A DNA stretch of 23,866 nt, from NCBI GenBank assembly GCA_030611945.1, contig JAUWOV010000018.1, forward strand, positions 1 through 23,866. Reading direction: 5' to 3'. The notes beneath the pieces were generated by a model. The model was not told where the DNA came from. It did not search any database and worked only from the letters and a program-made list of their open reading frames with translations. Below are positions 15,501 to 23,808 of this stretch, piece after piece (position 1 is the stretch's first letter; each line of letters starts with the position of its first letter). This DNA comes from a bacterium (GTDB lineage Bacteria; JAHJDO01). The translations under genes and the position numbers were made by a program.

Positions 15501-15932
15501 TCATCTTTTGTCAAGCTTTTGTGGAGGTCTAAACTTCTGGATTCTGCTATTGATAGCGCCAGAGGGAAGTTCTAGTGTATGTCGCGCGCTTTTTCCTCCA
15601 AAAGCCAGCCGAAATGGTTTTAACTGAGATATAGTCTTCACGACACAATAATTCTTATCCATAAAAATCACATCAATCGAGAATCTCATAAAACATGTAT
15701 GAATAGCTCTGCAGTTTTTAATCAGCAATCCCTCTCCAGAATCAAGTTTACTACGTCCAATTAGTCCCTTGGTTCTCATTTGCCATGTATCTGCAATAAC
15801 TACACCTTGTCCCAAAATCTGATTATTGCCAAAACTGGCCACTATAGTTGCCCTTCTAGAATCCGCCCTGCCTAGATCCGATAAACCATATACTTTGAAC
15901 TTCATCTCTAATTTTAGTCCTGTGTCTGCCAT
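15501..15932 (-). CDS. DUF192 protein
   Basis: 143 residues from ATG 15932; ATG 15905 is an equally possible start, preferred if the promoter at 15941-15970 is real because that would place the transcript start almost at 15932. The DUF192 domain (about 40-130) is clear: ADTWQMRTKGLIGR, GEGLLIKNCRAIHTCFMRFS, IDVIFMDKNY and HTLELPSGAI. Residues 1-38 have no recognisable homology, and I see no convincing signal peptide. The biochemical role of DUF192 is not established. It is the first gene of the block running into the MerR-like, ExeA and T2S genes. Confidence 0.82.
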   Translation of the reverse strand: MADTGLKLEMKFKVYGLSDLGRADSRRATIVASFGNNQILGQGVVIADTWQMRTKGLIGRSKLDSGEGLLIKNCRAIHTCFMRFSIDVIFMDKNYCVVKTISQLKPFRLAFGGKSARHTLELPSGAINSRIQKFRPPQKLDKR

Positions 15933-15977: not shown

Positions 15978-17372
15978 CTAGCGCTTGAGCTTTCTGCTTG
16001 CTGTTTTGTCTAATCGGGCTACACATAGAAATTCTTTTGGAACCTTATATGAAGCTAATCTCTGATAGCAGAATTTGCGTATATCATTGATATCAAAACT
16101 TGTTTTTGTTTTATTCTTCAGAACGATCCTTGCACAGGGAAGCTGCCCATACTGAGGATGGGTAATTCCATACACAAGAGATTCCTTGATATCCGGATGC
16201 TGATTGAGAACTGATTCCACTTCATAGGGAAAGACTTTCATACCTGCAAAATTAATGATATGTTTTTCTCTGCCAACAAGAAACAGAAAGCATTCTTTAT
16301 CAAGTCTGCCCAGATCCCCTGTCTTAAACCAGCCGTTATGCAATACCTGCTTTTTGCTTTGCCATGGAGAAAAATATGCATCAAACATTCCTTTTCCCCT
16401 GAGATAAACTTCACCAATCCCATTATCGTCAGCATTTACTATTTTTACTTCGTAATCCGGCAGAATCCTGCCTACTGACGGCAGACCTACTTCAATAATT
16501 CCATACGCTTCAGTCAGTTGAAAACCAAATTTTTCATAAAAATCATTCGCTATATCAACAGGCAGCTTTATTGCTGTACACACAGCTATGCGAAGACAAC
16601 TTAACATATGGGGAGAAAGCATCTTTGATTTTGTCAGCATATGATAGTGAAAGGGTGAAGCGTATATAAATGTTCCTCTGTGGTTTTTCAATTCCTCAAG
16701 CAGTAATTCAGGAAACGCTTGACTGCAGAGAATAATTGTTGCTCCGCGACGCAGGAAAAGGAGAATTGTTACTACAAAATGGAAGCTCATGGAAAGAACC
16801 CATATCACTATATCATTGGAAGTGATATTCAACCCTTTATCCGCAGCATTGGTTCTTTGAATAATAGCTTCATGGGAAATTACTACTCCTTTGCTTTTCC
16901 CTGTTGTGCCTGATGAAAACCGAATAAAAGCAGGATTTAATGCATAATAATCCGATGGAACCTGTTTCTTCGCTGCGCGCTGATACAGAAAAAACTCTCT
17001 TTCACACACACAATCAGAAAAAACCCGAAGACTGCCATGTTTGATACACTTTCTTTTATCAGAGAGCAAAGCATTCACATCAATTCTTTCCAGTATATCA
17101 TCAACTTCATATATGGATAACGACATAGATACTGGAACAATAACCGCAGGTAAAGACAGTACAGCCAGACTAATAATAATATAATCAATACTATCTTCAC
17201 ATAATAATGCTATACGTTGAGCCGGCTGAATTCCGTATGTCTTTAATTCGTCTGCAACTTTGTCCACAGCAGCAAACAATTCATCATAAGAAATCTGTTC
17301 ATTCCCGTCAATTACAGCAATTTTCTCTTGAAGTTTTTCTGTTTCGCTCTTTATTACATCTACAATGTTCAT
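15978..17372 (-). CDS. AMP-forming acyl-CoA synthetase/acyl-ACP ligase
   Basis: 464 residues of the ANL adenylating superfamily. Motifs in order: FSSGTTGKSKGVV (152-164, ATP loop), AYGIIEVG (289-296), WFKTGDLGRLD (348-358), GREKHIINFAGMKVFPYEVE (367-386), and the C-terminal TASRKLKR with the adenylation lysine at 461. The usual Ser-Gly-Lys is Ser-Arg-Lys here. It would activate a carboxylic acid with ATP and pass it to CoA or to a phosphopantetheinyl carrier. Two carrier proteins lie upstream in the same direction, which favours acyl-ACP loading. Length is compact (about 50-100 residues shorter than most acyl-CoA synthetases). No clear ribosome site is visible. A palindrome and a BRO-family gene separate it from the rest of the cluster. 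Confidence 0.85.
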   Translation of the reverse strand: MNIVDVIKSETEKLQEKIAVIDGNEQISYDELFAAVDKVADELKTYGIQPAQRIALLCEDSIDYIIISLAVLSLPAVIVPVSMSLSIYEVDDILERIDVNALLSDKRKCIKHGSLRVFSDCVCEREFFLYQRAAKKQVPSDYYALNPAFIRFSSGTTGKSKGVVISHEAIIQRTNAADKGLNITSNDIVIWVLSMSFHFVVTILLFLRRGATIILCSQAFPELLLEELKNHRGTFIYASPFHYHMLTKSKMLSPHMLSCLRIAVCTAIKLPVDIANDFYEKFGFQLTEAYGIIEVGLPSVGRILPDYEVKIVNADDNGIGEVYLRGKGMFDAYFSPWQSKKQVLHNGWFKTGDLGRLDKECFLFLVGREKHIINFAGMKVFPYEVESVLNQHPDIKESLVYGITHPQYGQLPCARIVLKNKTKTSFDINDIRKFCYQRLASYKVPKEFLCVARLDKTASRKLKR

Positions 17373-17388
17373 AAATTATATTTATTAA

Positions 17389-17408
17389 GGGCACAAGATA
17401 TTGTGCCC
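17389..17408. repeat. Palindromic GGGCACAA repeat
   Basis: GGGCACAA (17389-17396) and TTGTGCCC (17401-17408) form a perfect 8-bp stem with loop GATA, followed by CTAC. It sits between the BRO-like gene and the ligase. With no T-run on either strand it looks like a REP-type element rather than an intrinsic terminator. Confidence 0.55.
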
Positions 17409-17421
17409 CTACAGATGGATT

Positions 17422-18249
17422 TTAATGTGTGATCTTTTTTGGAGATAGATAATTGTCTGTGGTGATAACTTTCTTACCAGTCTTTTCTTCCAGTTCCAGT
17501 CTTGCTTTTTTGGCAATACCACCGCCTTTTTTGCCTGCAACTTTATTCTCTTCCATTCCGGTTGCTGTCATTGTTTCGGCTATCTGTCGAGTGGAGAGTT
17601 CGGCTAGCGCCGTAAAAATAAGTTCTGCTTCGCTCATGTGGTCGCGCAGGTTCTGGGTTTTTAAACCTTTAATGTTCTTGTGCTCTTTCACGGTTAGGCT
17701 TGTCCATTCCTGATGGATGATATTGGTCAGTATCGCGTATTCCTTCTCCTTTTTGATGTCATGATCTTTCCAATAGTCAGTAAGTTTGTTGCGGGTTTCC
17801 TGCCCCATCATCCGCTGCTGAATCCATTTTTTACTGCGCCCGTACTTTTGCCAAGTTTCCCTAGCTCTATCAAGTGATCTTGCGGGATCTGCCATATCCT
17901 GCATCCGTTCGTAACCGACTTTAGCAAGCCAGAGTTTAATTGGCTCTGCTTTGGGACTTGGTACAGACTGAATGAGACGAAGAAGAGTTTCTGGACTTGC
18001 AACATCGGTTAAGTATTTTTTGTCATCTGAGGCTTTTAATTTCAGTTGGTGACAATTTGTCACCGACTCACTGCCTTCCTTCTTGAGCCGTTCTTTTAAT
18101 TTATTCCAATACTTTCGGGCTGTTTGATAGTCTGGTTGCTGTATCAACGCCTGTATAATGTCCACAACCGAGAAAAGCCAAGTTTTCGTTTCTTCATTAT
18201 AAAGTCTACGGATTTTGAAATTCTCAAAGACAGCTAAAGTATTCTTCAT
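17422..18249 (-). CDS. BRO-family protein with DinD-like C-terminus
   Basis: 275 residues from ATG 18249; an ATG at 18261 sits directly on the ribosome site TGAGGT. Residues 1-95 are a Bro-N type DNA-binding domain (IRRLYNEETKTWLFSVVDII, then YWNKLKERLKKEG and YLTDVASPETLLRLIQSVPS). Residues 100-275 (KLWLAKVGYERMQDMADP, IKGLKTQNLRDHMSEAELIF, ENKVAGKKGGGIAKKARLEL) resemble the conserved tail of BRO/DinD proteins. Such genes occur in phages and also scattered singly on bacterial chromosomes. DinD is SOS-induced and inhibits RecA in E. coli. Nothing here links it to lipid or polyketide chemistry, so it is probably a mobile cargo gene inserted in the cluster. Confidence 0.78.
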   Translation of the reverse strand: MKNTLAVFENFKIRRLYNEETKTWLFSVVDIIQALIQQPDYQTARKYWNKLKERLKKEGSESVTNCHQLKLKASDDKKYLTDVASPETLLRLIQSVPSPKAEPIKLWLAKVGYERMQDMADPARSLDRARETWQKYGRSKKWIQQRMMGQETRNKLTDYWKDHDIKKEKEYAILTNIIHQEWTSLTVKEHKNIKGLKTQNLRDHMSEAELIFTALAELSTRQIAETMTATGMEENKVAGKKGGGIAKKARLELEEKTGKKVITTDNYLSPKKITH

Positions 18250-18290
18250 AAATATTACCATACCTCAAATTGCTTAAAACCTCAATAAAT

Positions 18291-19481
18291 TTAATTTTTG
18301 GATTTGAGTTTGACAGCCTCACAGCCTGCCTGTTCACCTAGAGACATACAGGTTCCCATAACTCTGGTAGAGCCTAATGCTTCTTGGGATACTGATATGC
18401 AACGTCCGGCGCAAAACAGATTGGAAATCTCCTGTGATTTAAGACAGCGCGCAGGAATTTCGTAGTAGTCTCCGGGATTAATGTAACAATACTGCGGACC
18501 TTTTTTTTGATTCCACAGTTCAATTGGCCATGCGCTCTTTAGGGCTCCATCAGGAAATTTTCGCGCATTTATTATATCGTTTGCGCTTAGTGTATACTCA
18601 CCACAGAGCCTGGATCCTTCCCGCTCAAGAACTTCAGACGATGTATCGGAAATATAGGAATCTTTGAATAAAGGCAAAACCTTACATAGATACCCATGTA
18701 CTACAACCGCATCCTTTTTTGCAAGTTGGATACTATTTCGCGCGGGAGGAATGCTGATTTTGCACAATCCTTCATCTGTATTATCTATAGGAATGAATGT
18801 TGTAAACTTAAGATAAAGTGGTATTTTTTTCTCTGCATATGCCTGCGCCAGATAATAAGGCACCTTTACTGCCGCCATATTATCTCTGTCTTTTAATCCT
18901 TTAACTCTAAATGTATATCCTGCAAGCTGGCGCTGTTTGGAATCTGACACCTGATGCTTTGCCCCGCTCAGTTGAATAATTACCCCATGTCCACTGCAGT
19001 CAATAACAGCTCTAGGAACAATGTCAAAGACACCCTTCTGTCCACGTACCCTAACAGCTGCTATAGTACTTTGTTCTGTTCTTACTGAAACCGCCTGTGT
19101 ATTGTATAAAACCTCAAGATGTTGTTTCTCATTTTTGATCAGAGAACGAAAAACAGATACAAGGTCTTGCCTTGAATATGGAAGAATATATACCCTGCCC
19201 ATACGCATTACTTTCTTCTCGGGTGACAGAACCTTCAGTTGAGAAATAATTTCCCTGACAATTCCTTTATTAATTGGACCCTTCGGCATATTTGTATCAT
19301 TTACATATAAGCCGCAGATAAAACAGTGTAAACCAGTTACTGCTGTTCCTCCCGGGAAATTATTTTTTTCTATCAGGATTGTATGCGCCCCTTTGCGCGC
19401 AGCGCTAACAGCGGCAATGGTTCCTGCAACACCGCTGCCAACAACAAGCACCTGGCATTCTTTCTTCATATTTTCCATCAT
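18291..19481 (-). CDS. FAD-dependent oxidoreductase
   Basis: 396 residues. The N-terminal Rossmann motif VLVVGSGVAGTIAAVSAARK with the acidic residue in LIEKNN binds FAD. FPGGTAVTG and the C-terminal NLFCAGRCISVSQEALGSTR, then MGTCMSLGEQAG close the FAD site and place it in the FAD_oxidored/GidA-like family. The substrate-binding middle region is not diagnostic. Its ATG overlaps the stop of the condensation-type gene (ATGA), so the two are translationally coupled and should act in one pathway. An oxidation, desaturation or reduction of the acyl chain is the natural guess. Confidence 0.85.
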   Translation of the reverse strand: MMENMKKECQVLVVGSGVAGTIAAVSAARKGAHTILIEKNNFPGGTAVTGLHCFICGLYVNDTNMPKGPINKGIVREIISQLKVLSPEKKVMRMGRVYILPYSRQDLVSVFRSLIKNEKQHLEVLYNTQAVSVRTEQSTIAAVRVRGQKGVFDIVPRAVIDCSGHGVIIQLSGAKHQVSDSKQRQLAGYTFRVKGLKDRDNMAAVKVPYYLAQAYAEKKIPLYLKFTTFIPIDNTDEGLCKISIPPARNSIQLAKKDAVVVHGYLCKVLPLFKDSYISDTSSEVLEREGSRLCGEYTLSANDIINARKFPDGALKSAWPIELWNQKKGPQYCYINPGDYYEIPARCLKSQEISNLFCAGRCISVSQEALGSTRVMGTCMSLGEQAGCEAVKLKSKN

Positions 19482-20779
19482 ACTCCTAGTCCGGACTGCA
19501 AAGTATGTACAATTGAATCTATTTCATCCTCTTCCAACATCCCATCTAAATAAGAAAAGGTCACATTCAGCTTGCCTTGGAACTGATTGAAGAATATTCC
19601 GCATCCCGGGGGAATTGGAACTCTGGGCATATGAAAAATATTATGTATTTTTTTCTCCATAAACATCGGAGAATCGTACGCAGCTTCGCCAATATAGGAA
19701 AAACAAAAAGAAGCAATCTGCCCTTTTAATGGCAGCCGCATCAGACAGCCTAAAACAGGCAAAGGAGCAATTCGCATCAAAAGACTTGCTTTCTCAATAT
19801 CTGCAGGCAAGTCTGCCTTTATCTGGTCATAGATCTGCTGCTTAATTGACTGCAAAATAACAGAAAAACTATCAGCCTCATTTGCTTTCACTTTAAGTAG
19901 GAAAAAGGACATATGATTAAAGAATACCTCTTGAGCAACTTTTTCTACCGGCCGCGTATCAATAGACGCAGGAATTATATAATCACCTGTACATATACCT
20001 CTTTTGGTAAAAATGCTGTGCAGAACCTGTATGGAAATCGCCAATGTGTACGGCATAAACATTAAATAACCTGCCTTATTATACGCAGTTTTGATAATTG
20101 CAGATGTCTGGCGCTCATCAAGCGAGATTATCTTAAATTTGAATATCTTTTTATTAGACGATGTGTCTAATGGTAAAGTACGTACTTTATTCTCTGATAA
20201 TTGTAACAGCTTTCTATTCACCCATTTACCTGCTTCAAATTTTTCTTTCCACTTACATAGATGAGCTGATTCTGCGAGAGAAATCTTATTGGAATAATCT
20301 GTTTTCTTTTTCTGTTCTTGCTGCAGCATATTCAAGAATACTTCAGCTCCCCTGGCATCAAATAGACAATGGTCAAATACTACAGCAAGAAAACTTGTTT
20401 TCCCTGCATAGATAAGATGAAATGCAAGGTGCTTCCTGACATTTTTGAATGGAATGTTTATTCCCTGCTCCAATGTAGAGATAACCTTGCTGAATGTCGC
20501 ATTATCGTCAAGGTGATAAATTCTAATATTTGGAGGAAGTATTTTTTCTTTGGAATAAATCTTCCAGTATGGGGCAAGATTGTAATCTCGCATTGACCTG
20601 CCATTCAAAACCGGAAATTTTTTAATGAACTTGTTCAGACATTCTCGTAATGTTGTCTCATCAAGCGCGCCTTCCATCTGCAGAACAATCTGAAACATGT
20701 TCCCGGCACCGATCTTCTTTTTGTTAATATGATTAATGGTATGAATGATCCAGTCAATACCGGTCAAATAACGTTTCAT
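19478..20779 (-). CDS. Condensation-domain-like acyltransferase
   Basis: 433 residues with the chloramphenicol-acetyltransferase/condensation fold. The active-site segment is VVFDHCLFDARG (134-144): His137 and Asp141 fit the HxxxD core, while the first His and final Gly of HHxxxDG are Asp and Ala. The C-terminal half (PASIDTRPVEKVAQEVFFNH, then FCFSYIGEAAY and LNVTFSYLDG) matches condensation/PapA/WES-like enzymes. These join an acyl thioester to an alcohol or amine acceptor. The start is 1 base after the second ACP stop, suggesting it uses the acyl chain on that carrier. The acceptor cannot be predicted. Confidence 0.8.
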   Translation of the reverse strand: MKRYLTGIDWIIHTINHINKKKIGAGNMFQIVLQMEGALDETTLRECLNKFIKKFPVLNGRSMRDYNLAPYWKIYSKEKILPPNIRIYHLDDNATFSKVISTLEQGINIPFKNVRKHLAFHLIYAGKTSFLAVVFDHCLFDARGAEVFLNMLQQEQKKKTDYSNKISLAESAHLCKWKEKFEAGKWVNRKLLQLSENKVRTLPLDTSSNKKIFKFKIISLDERQTSAIIKTAYNKAGYLMFMPYTLAISIQVLHSIFTKRGICTGDYIIPASIDTRPVEKVAQEVFFNHMSFFLLKVKANEADSFSVILQSIKQQIYDQIKADLPADIEKASLLMRIAPLPVLGCLMRLPLKGQIASFCFSYIGEAAYDSPMFMEKKIHNIFHMPRVPIPPGCGIFFNQFQGKLNVTFSYLDGMLEEDEIDSIVHTLQSGLGV

Positions 20780-20780
20780 C

Positions 20781-21032
20781 CTAACTCATTCTGCTGATAT
20801 ATGATGCCAGCAAATGGATGGTTTGAAAATCTTCTTTCGTTAAGCCTGATTCAATTAACTTTAAATTAAATGTTTTTTCAATAAACACCAGAAGCTCTAC
20901 AAAGCCAAATGAATCAATTCCCAGTGTGTGAAGAGGAGTGCTTGATGAGATTGTTGAAGAATCTACAGCTAAGATTACAGCAACCTCTTGAATCAATGTT
21001 TCCTCAATATCTGCTGCGGTCATTTTGTTCAT
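20781..21032 (-). CDS. Acyl carrier protein (second of cluster)
   Basis: 83 residues, the normal ACP size. LHTLGIDSFGFVELLVFIEK contains Ser41 of the DS motif, the phosphopantetheine attachment site. The four-helix ACP pattern is intact, with a final helix HLLASYISRM. AAGGA lies 8 bases before the ATG. Gly-Ile-Asp-Ser-Phe-Gly replaces the DSL of fatty-acid ACPs, indicating a dedicated pathway carrier. It lies between the ketosynthase pair and the condensation-type enzyme, which probably use it in turn. Confidence 0.9.
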   Translation of the reverse strand: MNKMTAADIEETLIQEVAVILAVDSSTISSSTPLHTLGIDSFGFVELLVFIEKTFNLKLIESGLTKEDFQTIHLLASYISRMS

Positions 21033-21057
21033 AAATAGAATCCTTATATGTTCCTTA

Positions 21058-22098
21058 CTAATTTTTCAATTTAATAACTGCCTTTTCTTCTCTACCATTA
21101 TACCTGATACAACTAATTCTCTGTATCTGAGCAGGTTCAGTCTTTGCGCATATATTTATATTGTGGGGATTATCTTGAACAGGACAGGCATAACGCATCT
21201 GATTCTTTAGCATGAGCGCCCCGGCAGCGCATCCAAATCCGCTGCCAGTCATCATACTGCCAAATATTGGCGAATACCCTGAGATACAAACACCAGATTC
21301 GGCAGCCTTTTGATATTCTCTCTCGTCTCCTGTCATACCGTCGGCATCAAGAATACACATATCCTGTTTGTTTTTTTCAACACTTTTATCATTTAAAGAA
21401 ACAGCTGTTATTTCGCAATATTTCTTATGGGATTTTTCCCGTGTCATCAAGAAGAATACGCTTCCATCTCCCGGCACTGCTACAGGTGTTTCTAAAAAGT
21501 TAAATGGTTTAATTCTGCCGTCTTCAGCAATTCTTAATTTTTGGCTGCAGATATATTCCATAACTGTTCCGCATTCATCAACACTTCCGACAAGAACATA
21601 TTCACACCGTTCCTCATAAAGCCATGCTCGCGCAAGGATAAGAGCCTGATGAAAAGAGAACGCAAACTGAGTAAGTGTTATGGTTGGACCACGGCTTTCT
21701 AACACAGATGAAATATAGGATGCTGCGGCATTATGAACAGAATGAGAAAATGTAGTTGGAGAAGCATTCCTATCACCATATTCAAGTATATCATCCAGAA
21801 AGCGAAATGTTGTTACATGCGGACCAAATGCTGTTGAAACAATAATACCAAGAGAAGATTTCTTTTTATTAAGATTGATAGCACTATCCGCTACAGCGTC
21901 CGCAGATGCTAATACTGCCATTTTACTAAATCTATCCGCGCGACGTATTTTGTCTAGAAATCTTTTGTCTATTATTGATTCTTTCTTCACATGATAACCG
22001 GAGTCTTCAGGCTTTGTCCATCCGTGCTTCAGCGCATCATCATAGCTGCTAATTCCTCGTCCTCCGCTAAAAACAACACCTATTCCTGCAACATTCAT
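21058..22098 (-). CDS. Ketosynthase-like, chain-length-factor-type protein without catalytic residues
   Basis: 346 residues from ATG 22098, chosen because GAGGTGG ends 8 bases before it; an in-frame GTG at 22110 overlaps that site. The thiolase fold is recognisable from SPTTFSHSVHNAAASYIS, as in the Ketoacyl-synt_2 family found in aryl polyene clusters. Aligned without gaps to the adjacent ketosynthase across the nucleophile segment, the Cys becomes Ala (TQFAFS for NACSS). The first His becomes Asp (LDADGM for NAHGT) and the second becomes Ser (TGS for TGH). It should be a non-catalytic partner forming a heterodimer with the ketosynthase, as chain-length factors do. It follows the ketosynthase by 2 bases. 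Confidence 0.85.
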   Translation of the reverse strand: MNVAGIGVVFSGGRGISSYDDALKHGWTKPEDSGYHVKKESIIDKRFLDKIRRADRFSKMAVLASADAVADSAINLNKKKSSLGIIVSTAFGPHVTTFRFLDDILEYGDRNASPTTFSHSVHNAAASYISSVLESRGPTITLTQFAFSFHQALILARAWLYEERCEYVLVGSVDECGTVMEYICSQKLRIAEDGRIKPFNFLETPVAVPGDGSVFFLMTREKSHKKYCEITAVSLNDKSVEKNKQDMCILDADGMTGDEREYQKAAESGVCISGYSPIFGSMMTGSGFGCAAGALMLKNQMRYACPVQDNPHNINICAKTEPAQIQRISCIRYNGREEKAVIKLKN

Positions 22099-22100
22099 AC

Positions 22101-23219
22101 TCAATTCCACCTCTTTTTTCCAATAACAATCGCAGCGTTGTTGCCCCCAAAGGCAAGGGACGTAGAAACAGCAAAAGATCCTTGTATATGCGTCTTCTCT
22201 GTAACAGGTGTTATAGGTATTTCCTCATCTTGATGCTCAAAGCCAACACTTGCAGGTATCCATCCTTCCAGAAGCGCAGCACCTGTAAAAACAGCTTCTA
22301 AACCTCCTGCACCAGCAAGCGTATGCCCCGTAAATCCCTTTGTGGAAAGAACCTTAATATCCTTACCAAAAACCCTTTCCAAAGCTATTCCCTCAACTTT
22401 ATCATTATCCCGGGTTGCAGTACCGTGAGCATTAACAAAACAGATATCTTGAGCCATGATATGAGCTTCAGCCAGTGCTCTGTTCAGTGCTGCTTCTAAA
22501 CCTGTTCCATCAGGTCTTGGAGCAGTAAGATGATACGCATCTGCTGACGCGCCGTATCCAGCAAGATACAATACAGATTTTCTGCCTCTCTTACGAGCGC
22601 ATGTTTCTTTTTCAAGCACAAGGATTCCAGCTCCTTCTCCTAAATTTAATCCCTTACGATCTCTGTCAAACGGAGCGCATAATGATTCACTAACAATACC
22701 AAGCGCCCCAAACCCGCATATAGGAATACGGTTCAATTCATCTGCGCCGCCGGCAATAGCGATATCACACTCTCCATTCATTAACCATGATAATGCTACT
22801 CCAATTGCATCAGCTCCTGAAGAACATGCATTCACCACAGTAACACATGGGCCTTTTGCTTTTATAGTATTTGCAACAGCTTGTGCAAGATTTCCTTTTA
22901 AAAACCGGTCAACAGAATCCATAGATGCCTTTCCTGTACTCCTGTACGAACGATAGAAGTCAACGTCATTCAACTGACTCGCCACAGTAGTCCCAAGACA
23001 TACTCCTACACGAAAATCTTCAATGTCTTTTTTTAGTTCTGCATCATCTAAGGCTTCATCTACTGCGCACAAAGCAAGGATTAAAGTGCTCATTCTGTGT
23101 TCAAAAACTGGTTTTTTATTTGCTTGTCCGCGCTGAAATGTATCTAGTGTTTCTGTGAGATTTGCACCCGCAGCAGAAATTGCGCCCATGCCTGTTATGA
23201 CTACGTTTGGTTTTTTCAT
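22101..23219 (-). CDS. Beta-ketoacyl-ACP synthase (FabF/type II PKS ketosynthase)
   Basis: 372 residues, about 40 shorter than FabF. The catalytic triad is complete: Cys132 in VVNACSSGAD, His265 in VNAHGTATRD, His299 in KGFTGHTLAGAGG, with Lys294. It performs the decarboxylative condensation of an acyl primer with malonyl-ACP. AFGGNNAAIVI is the usual C-terminal signature. AAAGGGG precedes the ATG. Gene order (ACP, KS, dead KS partner, ACP) resembles type II polyketide and aryl-polyene systems rather than the housekeeping fab operon, and no fabD, fabG or fabZ is nearby. Confidence 0.92.
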   Translation of the reverse strand: MKKPNVVITGMGAISAAGANLTETLDTFQRGQANKKPVFEHRMSTLILALCAVDEALDDAELKKDIEDFRVGVCLGTTVASQLNDVDFYRSYRSTGKASMDSVDRFLKGNLAQAVANTIKAKGPCVTVVNACSSGADAIGVALSWLMNGECDIAIAGGADELNRIPICGFGALGIVSESLCAPFDRDRKGLNLGEGAGILVLEKETCARKRGRKSVLYLAGYGASADAYHLTAPRPDGTGLEAALNRALAEAHIMAQDICFVNAHGTATRDNDKVEGIALERVFGKDIKVLSTKGFTGHTLAGAGGLEAVFTGAALLEGWIPASVGFEHQDEEIPITPVTEKTHIQGSFAVSTSLAFGGNNAAIVIGKKRWN

Positions 23220-23234
23220 GGAACCCCTTTGAAA

Positions 23235-23360
23235 AAAATCCGAAATCCTAAATCCGAAACAAATTCCAAATTCAAATTTTTAAAATTTAAAACATTGTTT
23301 TGGACATTTGTATTTTGGTCATTTGATATTGTTTCGTATTTCGTGCTTCGTGCTTCGAAT
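23235..23360. repeat. Interspersed ATCCGAA repeat between the first ACP and the ketosynthase
   Basis: AAATCCGAAATCCTAAATCC opens the element. AAACAAATTCCAAATTC, AAACATTGTTTTGGACATTT and GTATTTTGG follow, then TTTCGTATTTCGTGCTTCG with a duplicated TGCTTCG. It corresponds end to end with 7684-7811 and has the same orientation relative to the flanking genes. Confidence 0.75.
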
Positions 23361-23642
23361 TTATGCTTTTGTATTCTCGTATATATATTGTGTCAGAGTC
23401 TCAATTGAATAAAATATTTTTCTGCCCTGATCCATATCCTTGATTTCCAAGCCAAAATTCCGCTGTAATAGCACAACAATCTCTACCGCATCCAAAGAAT
23501 CCAGTCCAAGTCCTTCGCCAAACAGGACCTCATCGTCTTTAATATCTTCAGGTTTTATATTCTCCAATGATAGACTGCTTACAAGCAGTTCCTTCAACTT
23601 GTTTCGTATTTCTTCCAATCCTTTTTGCTTTTGCTCCGCCAT
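23361..23642 (-). CDS. Acyl carrier protein (first gene of the cluster)
   Basis: 93 residues. Ser49 in GEGLGLDSLDAVEIVVLLQR is the phosphopantetheine site. The pattern resembles carriers of aryl polyene and type II polyketide clusters (long acidic helix II, FGLEIKDMD). AGGAG lies about 8 bases before the ATG and a strong promoter about 35 bases upstream, so this is the first gene of the operon. A 126-base repeat, which could alter transcript stability or stoichiometry, separates it from the ketosynthase. Confidence 0.92.
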   Translation of the reverse strand: MAEQKQKGLEEIRNKLKELLVSSLSLENIKPEDIKDDEVLFGEGLGLDSLDAVEIVVLLQRNFGLEIKDMDQGRKIFYSIETLTQYIYENTKA

Positions 23643-23681: not shown

Positions 23682-23710
23682 ATCATATCTTCTTCTTATT
23701 CGTTTTTCAA
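23682..23710 (-). promoter_or_regulatory. Promoter of the biosynthetic operon
   Basis: On the minus strand, TTGAAA (23705-23710), a 17-base spacer and TATGAT (23682-23687), each a 5/6 match to the sigma-70 consensus. The expected start near 23675 gives a leader of about 33 bases before the first ACP. Confidence 0.55.
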
Positions 23711-23776: not shown

Positions 23777-23808
23777 GACCCCATCCCGAAAGCTTTCGGG
23801 ATGGGGTC
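23777..23808. repeat. 32-bp perfect palindrome
   Basis: GACCCCATCCCGAAAG followed immediately by its exact complement CTTTCGGGATGGGGTC. No T-run follows on either strand, so it is not a standard terminator. It lies beyond the cluster promoter. No gene is visible between 23711 and the window end. Confidence 0.7.

Follow-up and report, generated by a model that had tools for sequence, protein, structure and literature searches.

A dispersed bacterial gene set best described as following the aryl polyene/flexirubin plan with added 'ladderane' radical-SAM enzymes

Judged by its genes and their homologies, the cluster analysed here is best described as an aryl polyene/flexirubin plan to which 'ladderane' radical-SAM enzymes have been added. 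We consider it likely that it encodes a type II fatty acid-polyketide pathway of the aryl polyene/flexirubin type in an uncultured bacterium. The acyl product of this pathway would be coupled to a lipid and exported to the outer membrane, most likely giving a lipid of polyene type that resembles a pigment. The sequences show which genes are present, their homologies and conserved linkage, which active sites are intact or dead, and purifying selection; from these we infer the reactions, their order and the product. The window (the whole stretch of DNA analysed, 23,866 bases) is the entire contig C19 of a draft genome of 1.66 Mb in 119 contigs that is 91% complete, and most likely carries one of four dispersed pieces of the pathway rather than the complete pathway. 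At phylum level the source genome is alone among those compared, and it has a sister metagenome-assembled genome (MAG) from cold seeps; a single-sequence scan of genome contigs with COND, the condensation-type enzyme of the window, returned the sister MAG CSMAG_1431 as its sole match.

Genes of the window and their conservation

The genes lie on the minus strand between positions 15978 and 23642, in the order ACP1, KS, CLF-like partner, ACP2, COND, FAD enzyme, BRO-N gene and LIG:

23682..23710, minus strand: promoter-like site TTGAAA-17-TATGAT before ACP1, kept in genomes G004 and G002
23361..23642, minus strand: ACP1, acyl carrier protein of the ApeE kind (NCBIfam NF006617 (PRK09184), 76.4 bits, cut-off 70)
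22101..23219, minus strand: KS, active-type ketosynthase, ApeO-like (top model PRK09185)
21058..22098, minus strand: CLF-like partner, a catalytically dead KS (ketoacyl-synt 51.5 bits, Ketoacyl-synt_2 46.6)
20781..21032, minus strand: ACP2, second carrier protein, directly before COND (PP-binding 32 bits; serine in LGIDSF)
19478..20779, minus strand: COND, stand-alone condensation-superfamily enzyme with DHxxxD (PF00668, E 3.5e-4)
18291..19481, minus strand: FAD-dependent oxidoreductase (FAD_oxidored, PF12831, 234.9 bits)
17422..18261, minus strand: BRO-N protein, an insertion inside the operon and candidate phage-defence gene PDC-S13 (Pfam Bro-N PF02498; PADLOC PDC-S13, 385 bits)
15978..17372, minus strand: LIG, acyl-adenylating ligase (AMP-binding 182.9 bits, AMP-binding_C 64.5 bits)

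The sequence-only reading of this DNA had placed seven co-directional pathway genes here. Their positions and families are as it named them (PP-binding twice, ketoacyl-synt twice, a weak Condensation match, FAD_oxidored and AMP-binding), and the family matches support the roles it assigned. From ACP1 to LIG, with the BRO-N gene included, the intergenic gaps are 141, 2, 25, 1, -4, 29 and 49 bases. The seven pathway genes are tightly spaced, with the correction to the earlier reading that the BRO-N gene splits the FAD enzyme from LIG. G001, G002 and G004 lack this gene at the corresponding site, and it is outside the pathway. The CLF-like partner most likely starts at 22098, at a conserved MN start, and not at the GTG at 22110.

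Within the genus, the orthologues that sister genomes hold of the window genes are 80-92% identical and kept in order, and pairwise dN/dS against them is 0.06-0.24, the dead KS and COND included. By these comparisons the seven genes are therefore real and not chance frames, under purifying selection in the sister species, and the expectation that relatives would conserve the set is borne out. On a 184 kb contig of G004, LpxL, a PagL-like gene, ACP1, KS, CLF, ACP2, COND, FAD and LIG follow in sequence, and the same genes form one block in G002. None of the pathway's diagnostic genes was found in G003, a genome of the same genus that is 91% complete, so the pathway looks accessory within the genus.

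The contig ends 224 nt upstream of ACP1 and, because the window is the entire contig, the region upstream of that gene cannot be read from it. A good promoter had been proposed ahead of ACP1. Promoter-like sites are no more frequent than chance (2 found, 2.4 expected from shuffles), but this one is retained in two sister species whose flanking sequence has diverged, and a promoter here is therefore plausible.

ACP1 is 36% identical to ApeE of the aryl polyene cluster, carries its serine in GLDSLD and scores above the cut-off of NF006617, a model against which E. coli ApeE itself reaches 89.5 bits. KS is 34% identical to ApeO (E 8e-62); against PRK09185 it scores 285.7 bits, short of the cut-off of 407, and ApeO scores 556. 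The KS catalytic residues C132, H265, H299 and K294 are invariant in five genomes. In the partner, the position of the catalytic Cys is Ala/Ala/Glu/Ala/Ser across five genomes (Cys to Ala in the window) and Asp and Ser occupy the positions of the catalytic His residues, confirming that it had rightly been called a dead KS; its dN/dS is 0.18-0.22. The partner matches ApeC weakly (E 0.001 in sisters), and the top solved-structure matches of KS and CLF are two different chains of one entry, 9s5h. An AlphaFold model of CLF from five sequences reached a pLDDT of 32 and was set aside. The window thus holds a KS, a dead CLF-type partner and a dedicated ACP, as in aryl polyene/flexirubin clusters.

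Probable pathway genes on three further contigs

The linkage of the four pieces (C4, C14, C19 and C113) is known from other genomes, not from the source genome. C113 carries a ketoreductase (KR), a CrtI-like desaturase (PD), KS4 and ACP3, with 89-93% identity to the G004 cluster (92% for KR). On C4 are an LPLAT acyltransferase, a PCL/FlxY/PaaK-like ligase and a radical-SAM/SPASM protein that ends in a hotdog (dehydratase) domain. C14, located via orthologues of the G004 LpxL and of the radical-SAM protein next to the ACP2-to-LIG module in G024, holds LolA-like, MMPL and DUF3261-like lipoprotein genes (the last just below cut-off, 20.6/22.3), an ApeI/FabA-like dehydratase (DH), KS3 and a KS-like fragment. 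Also encoded there are two B12 radical-SAM enzymes, a GT2 truncated in the source genome and represented by its DUF2062 part, LpxL and a PagL-like protein. The source genome thus has a dedicated KR, DH and hotdog domain, and on C14 acyltransferases and GT2 with the LolA-MMPL-DUF3261 set.

In G002 and G004 the genes of the C113, C4 and C14 types form one continuous block from KR to GT2. In an unrelated genome, G038, two radical-SAM genes, GT2, LpxL, ACP1, KS and CLF stand in a row, with a second block running from KR to the KS fragment; corresponding blocks occur in G268, where a B12 radical-SAM gene adjoins ACP1-KS-CLF. The apparent lack of KR and DH in the window is therefore a contig-edge effect, since these genes are on other contigs and are joined to window-type genes in relatives. 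That lack had been taken to set the locus apart from aryl polyene and flexirubin clusters, a separation that the dedicated KR, DH, hotdog domain and export set do not support. Of the KR, DH and cyclase genes of a known class named as evidence against the sequence-only reading, KR and DH are present and no cyclase was seen.

The second C14 radical-SAM enzyme (rSAM2) belongs to TIGR04072 ('ladderane' B12), scoring 646 bits against a cut-off of 360. TIGR04072 is found above cut-off in 11 of 385 genomes and 9 of 325 genera, and the CLF profile in five of the 385 (three of the source genus, plus G038 and G268). Every genus with CLF or COND falls among the nine TIGR04072-positive genera; for CLF this is 3/3 inside nine of 325 (P 1.5e-5, with genera treated as unrelated).

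Comparison with known pathways

We compared the four pieces by BLAST with the ape cluster of E. coli CFT073 (apeA-apeR), taking gene functions from PMC8253772. KS4 matched ApeR (43%), KR ApeQ (43%), DH ApeI (32%) and the hotdog domain ApeP (30%), and both GT2 (31%) and LpxL (25%) matched the glycosyltransferase/acyltransferase ApeJ; further matches were MMPL to ApeM, LPLAT to ApeD, ACP1 to ApeE and ACP3 to ApeF. The two systems thus share a KS with CLF, an ApeR-type KS, KR, ApeI- and ApeP-type dehydratases and ACPs of the ApeE and ApeF kinds, together with LPLAT, GT2, an LpxL-type acyltransferase, MMPL, LolA-like and DUF3261 proteins. In contrast to the E. coli cluster, the pathway of the source genome is spread across four contigs and encodes GT2 and LpxL separately, and a radical-SAM/SPASM enzyme carries the ApeP-like domain as a fusion. 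Additions are two B12 radical-SAM enzymes, the CrtI-like desaturase, the PagL-like gene and ACP2-COND-FAD-LIG, whereas an ApeH-like ligase, ApeB and ApeG were not seen at the source-genome loci. LIG gave no BLAST match to ApeH.

With the flexirubin cluster (flx) of Chitinophaga pinensis the source genome shares near-threshold matches to the FlxY ligase, an experimentally shown 4-coumarate-CoA ligase (PMC3992019), to the FlxB reductase and to LolA2. All fall below the curated equivalog cut-offs (471/520, 290/340 and 104.5/125), so these proteins are relatives, not equivalogs, and we do not file the pathway as a flexirubin cluster proper. DarA/DarB and an ammonia-lyase were not seen at the source-genome loci, nor a methyltransferase at the loci read, and the radical-SAM enzymes are additional here. 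A cispentacin-type (Amc) pathway was rejected, as the AmcB, AmcF and AmcG models match the ACPs, KS and CLF far below cut-off (41-49/80, 218/325 and 31/80).

On the aryl polyene/flexirubin plan, the FlxY-like ligase on C4 and KS4 would start the chain, which the window KS, its dead partner and ACP1 would elongate with malonyl units. KR, the dehydratase and the hotdog domain would leave conjugated double bonds, and the B12 radical-SAM enzymes and CrtI-like desaturase would modify the chain. A lipid head would then be joined to it by LPLAT, GT2 and LpxL, and transport of the product to the outer membrane would fall to MMPL, LolA and the DUF3261 lipoprotein.

The TIGR04072 enzyme raises another reading, in which the product is a ladderane-type or polyunsaturated hydrocarbon lipid and the B12 radical-SAM enzymes and the CrtI-like desaturase perform the key steps, as proposed for Kuenenia and Desulfotalea. 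The ladderane-type FASII of these organisms shares with the source genome TIGR04072, phytoene-desaturase-like and phenylacetate-CoA-ligase-like genes and divergent FabF paralogues without catalytic residues; these, with the SAM and glycosyltransferase genes, fit the set of Rattray et al. 2009 (PMC2649909), and 'ladderane' clusters have been reported across many anoxic non-anammox phyla, where their function is unknown (PMC9902471). However, the LolA, MMPL, DUF3261, LpxL and KS/KR/DH genes resemble aryl polyene clusters, Desulfotalea has no detected ladderane lipid (PMC2649909), and the role of the cluster is unproven even in anammox bacteria (PMC4790861). Unlike the ladderane-type FASII, the source genome has an APE-type export and attachment set, a KS/CLF with an ApeE-like ACP, and the ACP2-to-LIG module. 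We regard a ladderane-type product as unlikely. Far less credible is the earlier proposal that the seven genes are complete in themselves, rely on the KR and DH of housekeeping fatty acid synthesis and make an unusual acyl conjugate. A housekeeping FabG-ACP-FabF set does exist on C2, and the seven genes do stand together in G002 and G004, but the source genome has dedicated KR, DH, KS, ACP and export genes of its own, joined to window-gene homologues elsewhere, and the G002/G004 operon already begins with LpxL and the PagL-like gene. With dedicated KR and DH, borrowing from housekeeping synthesis is not forced; ACP2-COND-FAD-LIG may yet make such a conjugate. As a complete cluster the window is ruled out by its contig-edge position together with C4, C14 and C113.

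The aryl polyene/flexirubin reading has a wider bearing, as a 'ladderane'-type cluster here follows that plan gene by gene, export set included, with B12 radical-SAM enzymes added. An aryl polyene-like product is thus a concrete alternative class to test for 'ladderane' clusters.

The ACP2-COND-FAD-LIG module

ACP2, COND, the FAD enzyme and LIG (module B) are the pathway's unusual part, a putative four-gene activation-and-joining unit, rare among the searched genomes, that occurs in two distant lineages. The COND profile is found in 6 of 385 genomes, namely four of the source genus plus G024 and G309, and the latter two are alone in carrying COND among 9 genomes of G024's phylum. ACP2 adjoins COND in G000, G002, G004 and G024. 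In the sister species module B starts 15-25 nt after CLF, in the same operon; in G024 and G309, rSAM2, ACP2 (read in G024), COND, FAD and LIG are contiguous, without a CLF of the window kind.

COND scores 19.8 bits against PF00668, below the gathering score of 30.6, and its sequence gave nothing significant against solved structures (best SrfA-C, E 0.57). The motif D136-H137-xxx-D141 is invariant in six sequences and keeps the second His and the Asp of HHxxxD, with Asp for the first His. We used an AlphaFold model of COND for fold class only, given its mean pLDDT of 50.5 and low TM-scores. The best 50 Foldseek matches are all C-domain superfamily proteins (E 9e-10), VIA Z values reach 11.8, and this low-confidence model is predicted to have the condensation-superfamily fold. 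The predicted fold and the retained His and Asp are shared with the stand-alone condensation enzymes SgcC5 (4znm) and the enacyloxin chain-release C domain (6cgo), from which COND differs in its DHxxxD motif, its sub-gathering Pfam score, an identity of about 10-14% and a free ACP partner in a FAS-like pathway.

Tentatively, we propose that module B serves to activate a further acyl group and couple it to the chain, a possible role that we rate at less than even. Judging by its neighbourhood, LIG would charge ACP2 with this second acid. The FAD enzyme would oxidise the acid on the carrier, and COND would then link it, through an ester or amide bond, to either the chain or the lipid head. Module B may instead serve something else, because G024 and G309 keep it without a CLF of the window kind. 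Two pathways might then meet in the window, ACP1-KS-CLF making the polyene and ACP2-COND-FAD-LIG forming an independent small ester/amide module, in one operon in the source genus only. This is compatible with the aryl polyene class and competes only with the role proposed for module B. The separate occurrence of the parts speaks for it, G038 and G268 having ACP1-KS-CLF without module B as G024 and G309 have the reverse, but in G024/G309 module B neighbours the same TIGR04072 radical-SAM gene, and in the sister species it shares the CLF operon; on balance we find two meeting pathways rather unlikely, though worth serious consideration. Combining all elements, an anaerobic aryl polyene/ladderane hybrid would be an outer-membrane polyene with double bonds rearranged or cyclised by the B12 radical-SAM enzymes, capped by an acyl group that a free-standing condensation enzyme would take from an ACP of its own, in a lineage far from the anammox planctomycetes; we hold such a product to be unlikely, and advance it as speculation.

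FAD enzyme orthologues are 86% identical in G001 and 47-48% in G024/G309, and in G002/G004 the gene is swapped for another FAD_oxidored (24%). LIG is 90-91% identical to the sister species and 53-54% to G024/G309, and a loop of 12 residues is absent from it relative to its relatives. The module is compact and amenable to in vitro testing.

Probable replacement at the FAD position and an insertion behind it

The gene for the FAD oxidoreductase differs between the genome under study and two sister genomes of the same genus (G002 and G004), and the gap that follows it, before the ligase, differs from that of a third (G001).

Window 18291-19481, FAD oxidoreductase of the operon
L042:7618-8919 and L043:2577-3878, differing FAD oxidoreductase in G002 and G004
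Window 17422-18261, minus strand, BRO-N gene with matches to phrog_15286 and to PDC-S13, a candidate defence family in PADLOC (385 bits)

At the equivalent operon position, G002 and G004 have another gene of the FAD_oxidored family, 24% identical to that of the window. Because its dS between G002 and G004 (0.047) lies below that of the neighbouring genes (0.09-0.37), sequence comparison suggests a recent replacement through recombination. The BRO-N gene, located inside the operon between the FAD gene and the ligase, occurs at that spot only in the genome under study. In G001 this spot (L044:1385-3036) is taken up by two other genes, one for a REP-associated tyrosine transposase and one for a protein of 323 aa.

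Ligase and operon flanks

The window ligase (15978-17372, minus strand) lacks a 12-residue loop kept by all relatives, and Arg replaces Gly in its C-terminal A10 motif (KTASRKLKR), which could affect its activity.

Window 15501-15932, minus strand, DUF192 gene starting with the ~24 first codons of a PP2C phosphatase gene
Window 23777-23808, perfect 32-nt palindrome with no loop, GACCCCATCCCGAAAG/CTTTCGGGATGGGGTC

In G002 and G004, the PP2C phosphatase gene occupies the spot of the DUF192 gene. Since the latter opens with PP2C codons and a search of the genome under study did not find the remainder of the phosphatase gene, a rearrangement, or else an assembly join, has attached the beginning of the phosphatase gene to a different gene. 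About 70 nt separate the palindrome from the conserved promoter-like site downstream of it, and the core of the palindrome was found again in G004 at L124:892.

Pathway genes outside the window

L073:12589-13167, L074:12763-13335, L106:7400-8044 and L147:1255-1923, KS-like fragment of 180-220 aa
L074:3549-5018 and L146:9300-10769, fusion of a radical-SAM/SPASM enzyme with a hotdog dehydratase domain of ApeP type

The KS-like fragment, which has no recognisable active site, is conserved near KS3 and radical-SAM genes in several unrelated genomes. The radical-SAM/SPASM-hotdog fusion is conserved within the genus and likewise in G038, an unrelated genome, and in G268. The glycosyltransferase GT2 is cut down to its DUF2062 part in the genome under study (L073:9578-10093); in G002, a radical-SAM enzyme and GT2 form a single fused 830-aa frame (L075:14488-16980).
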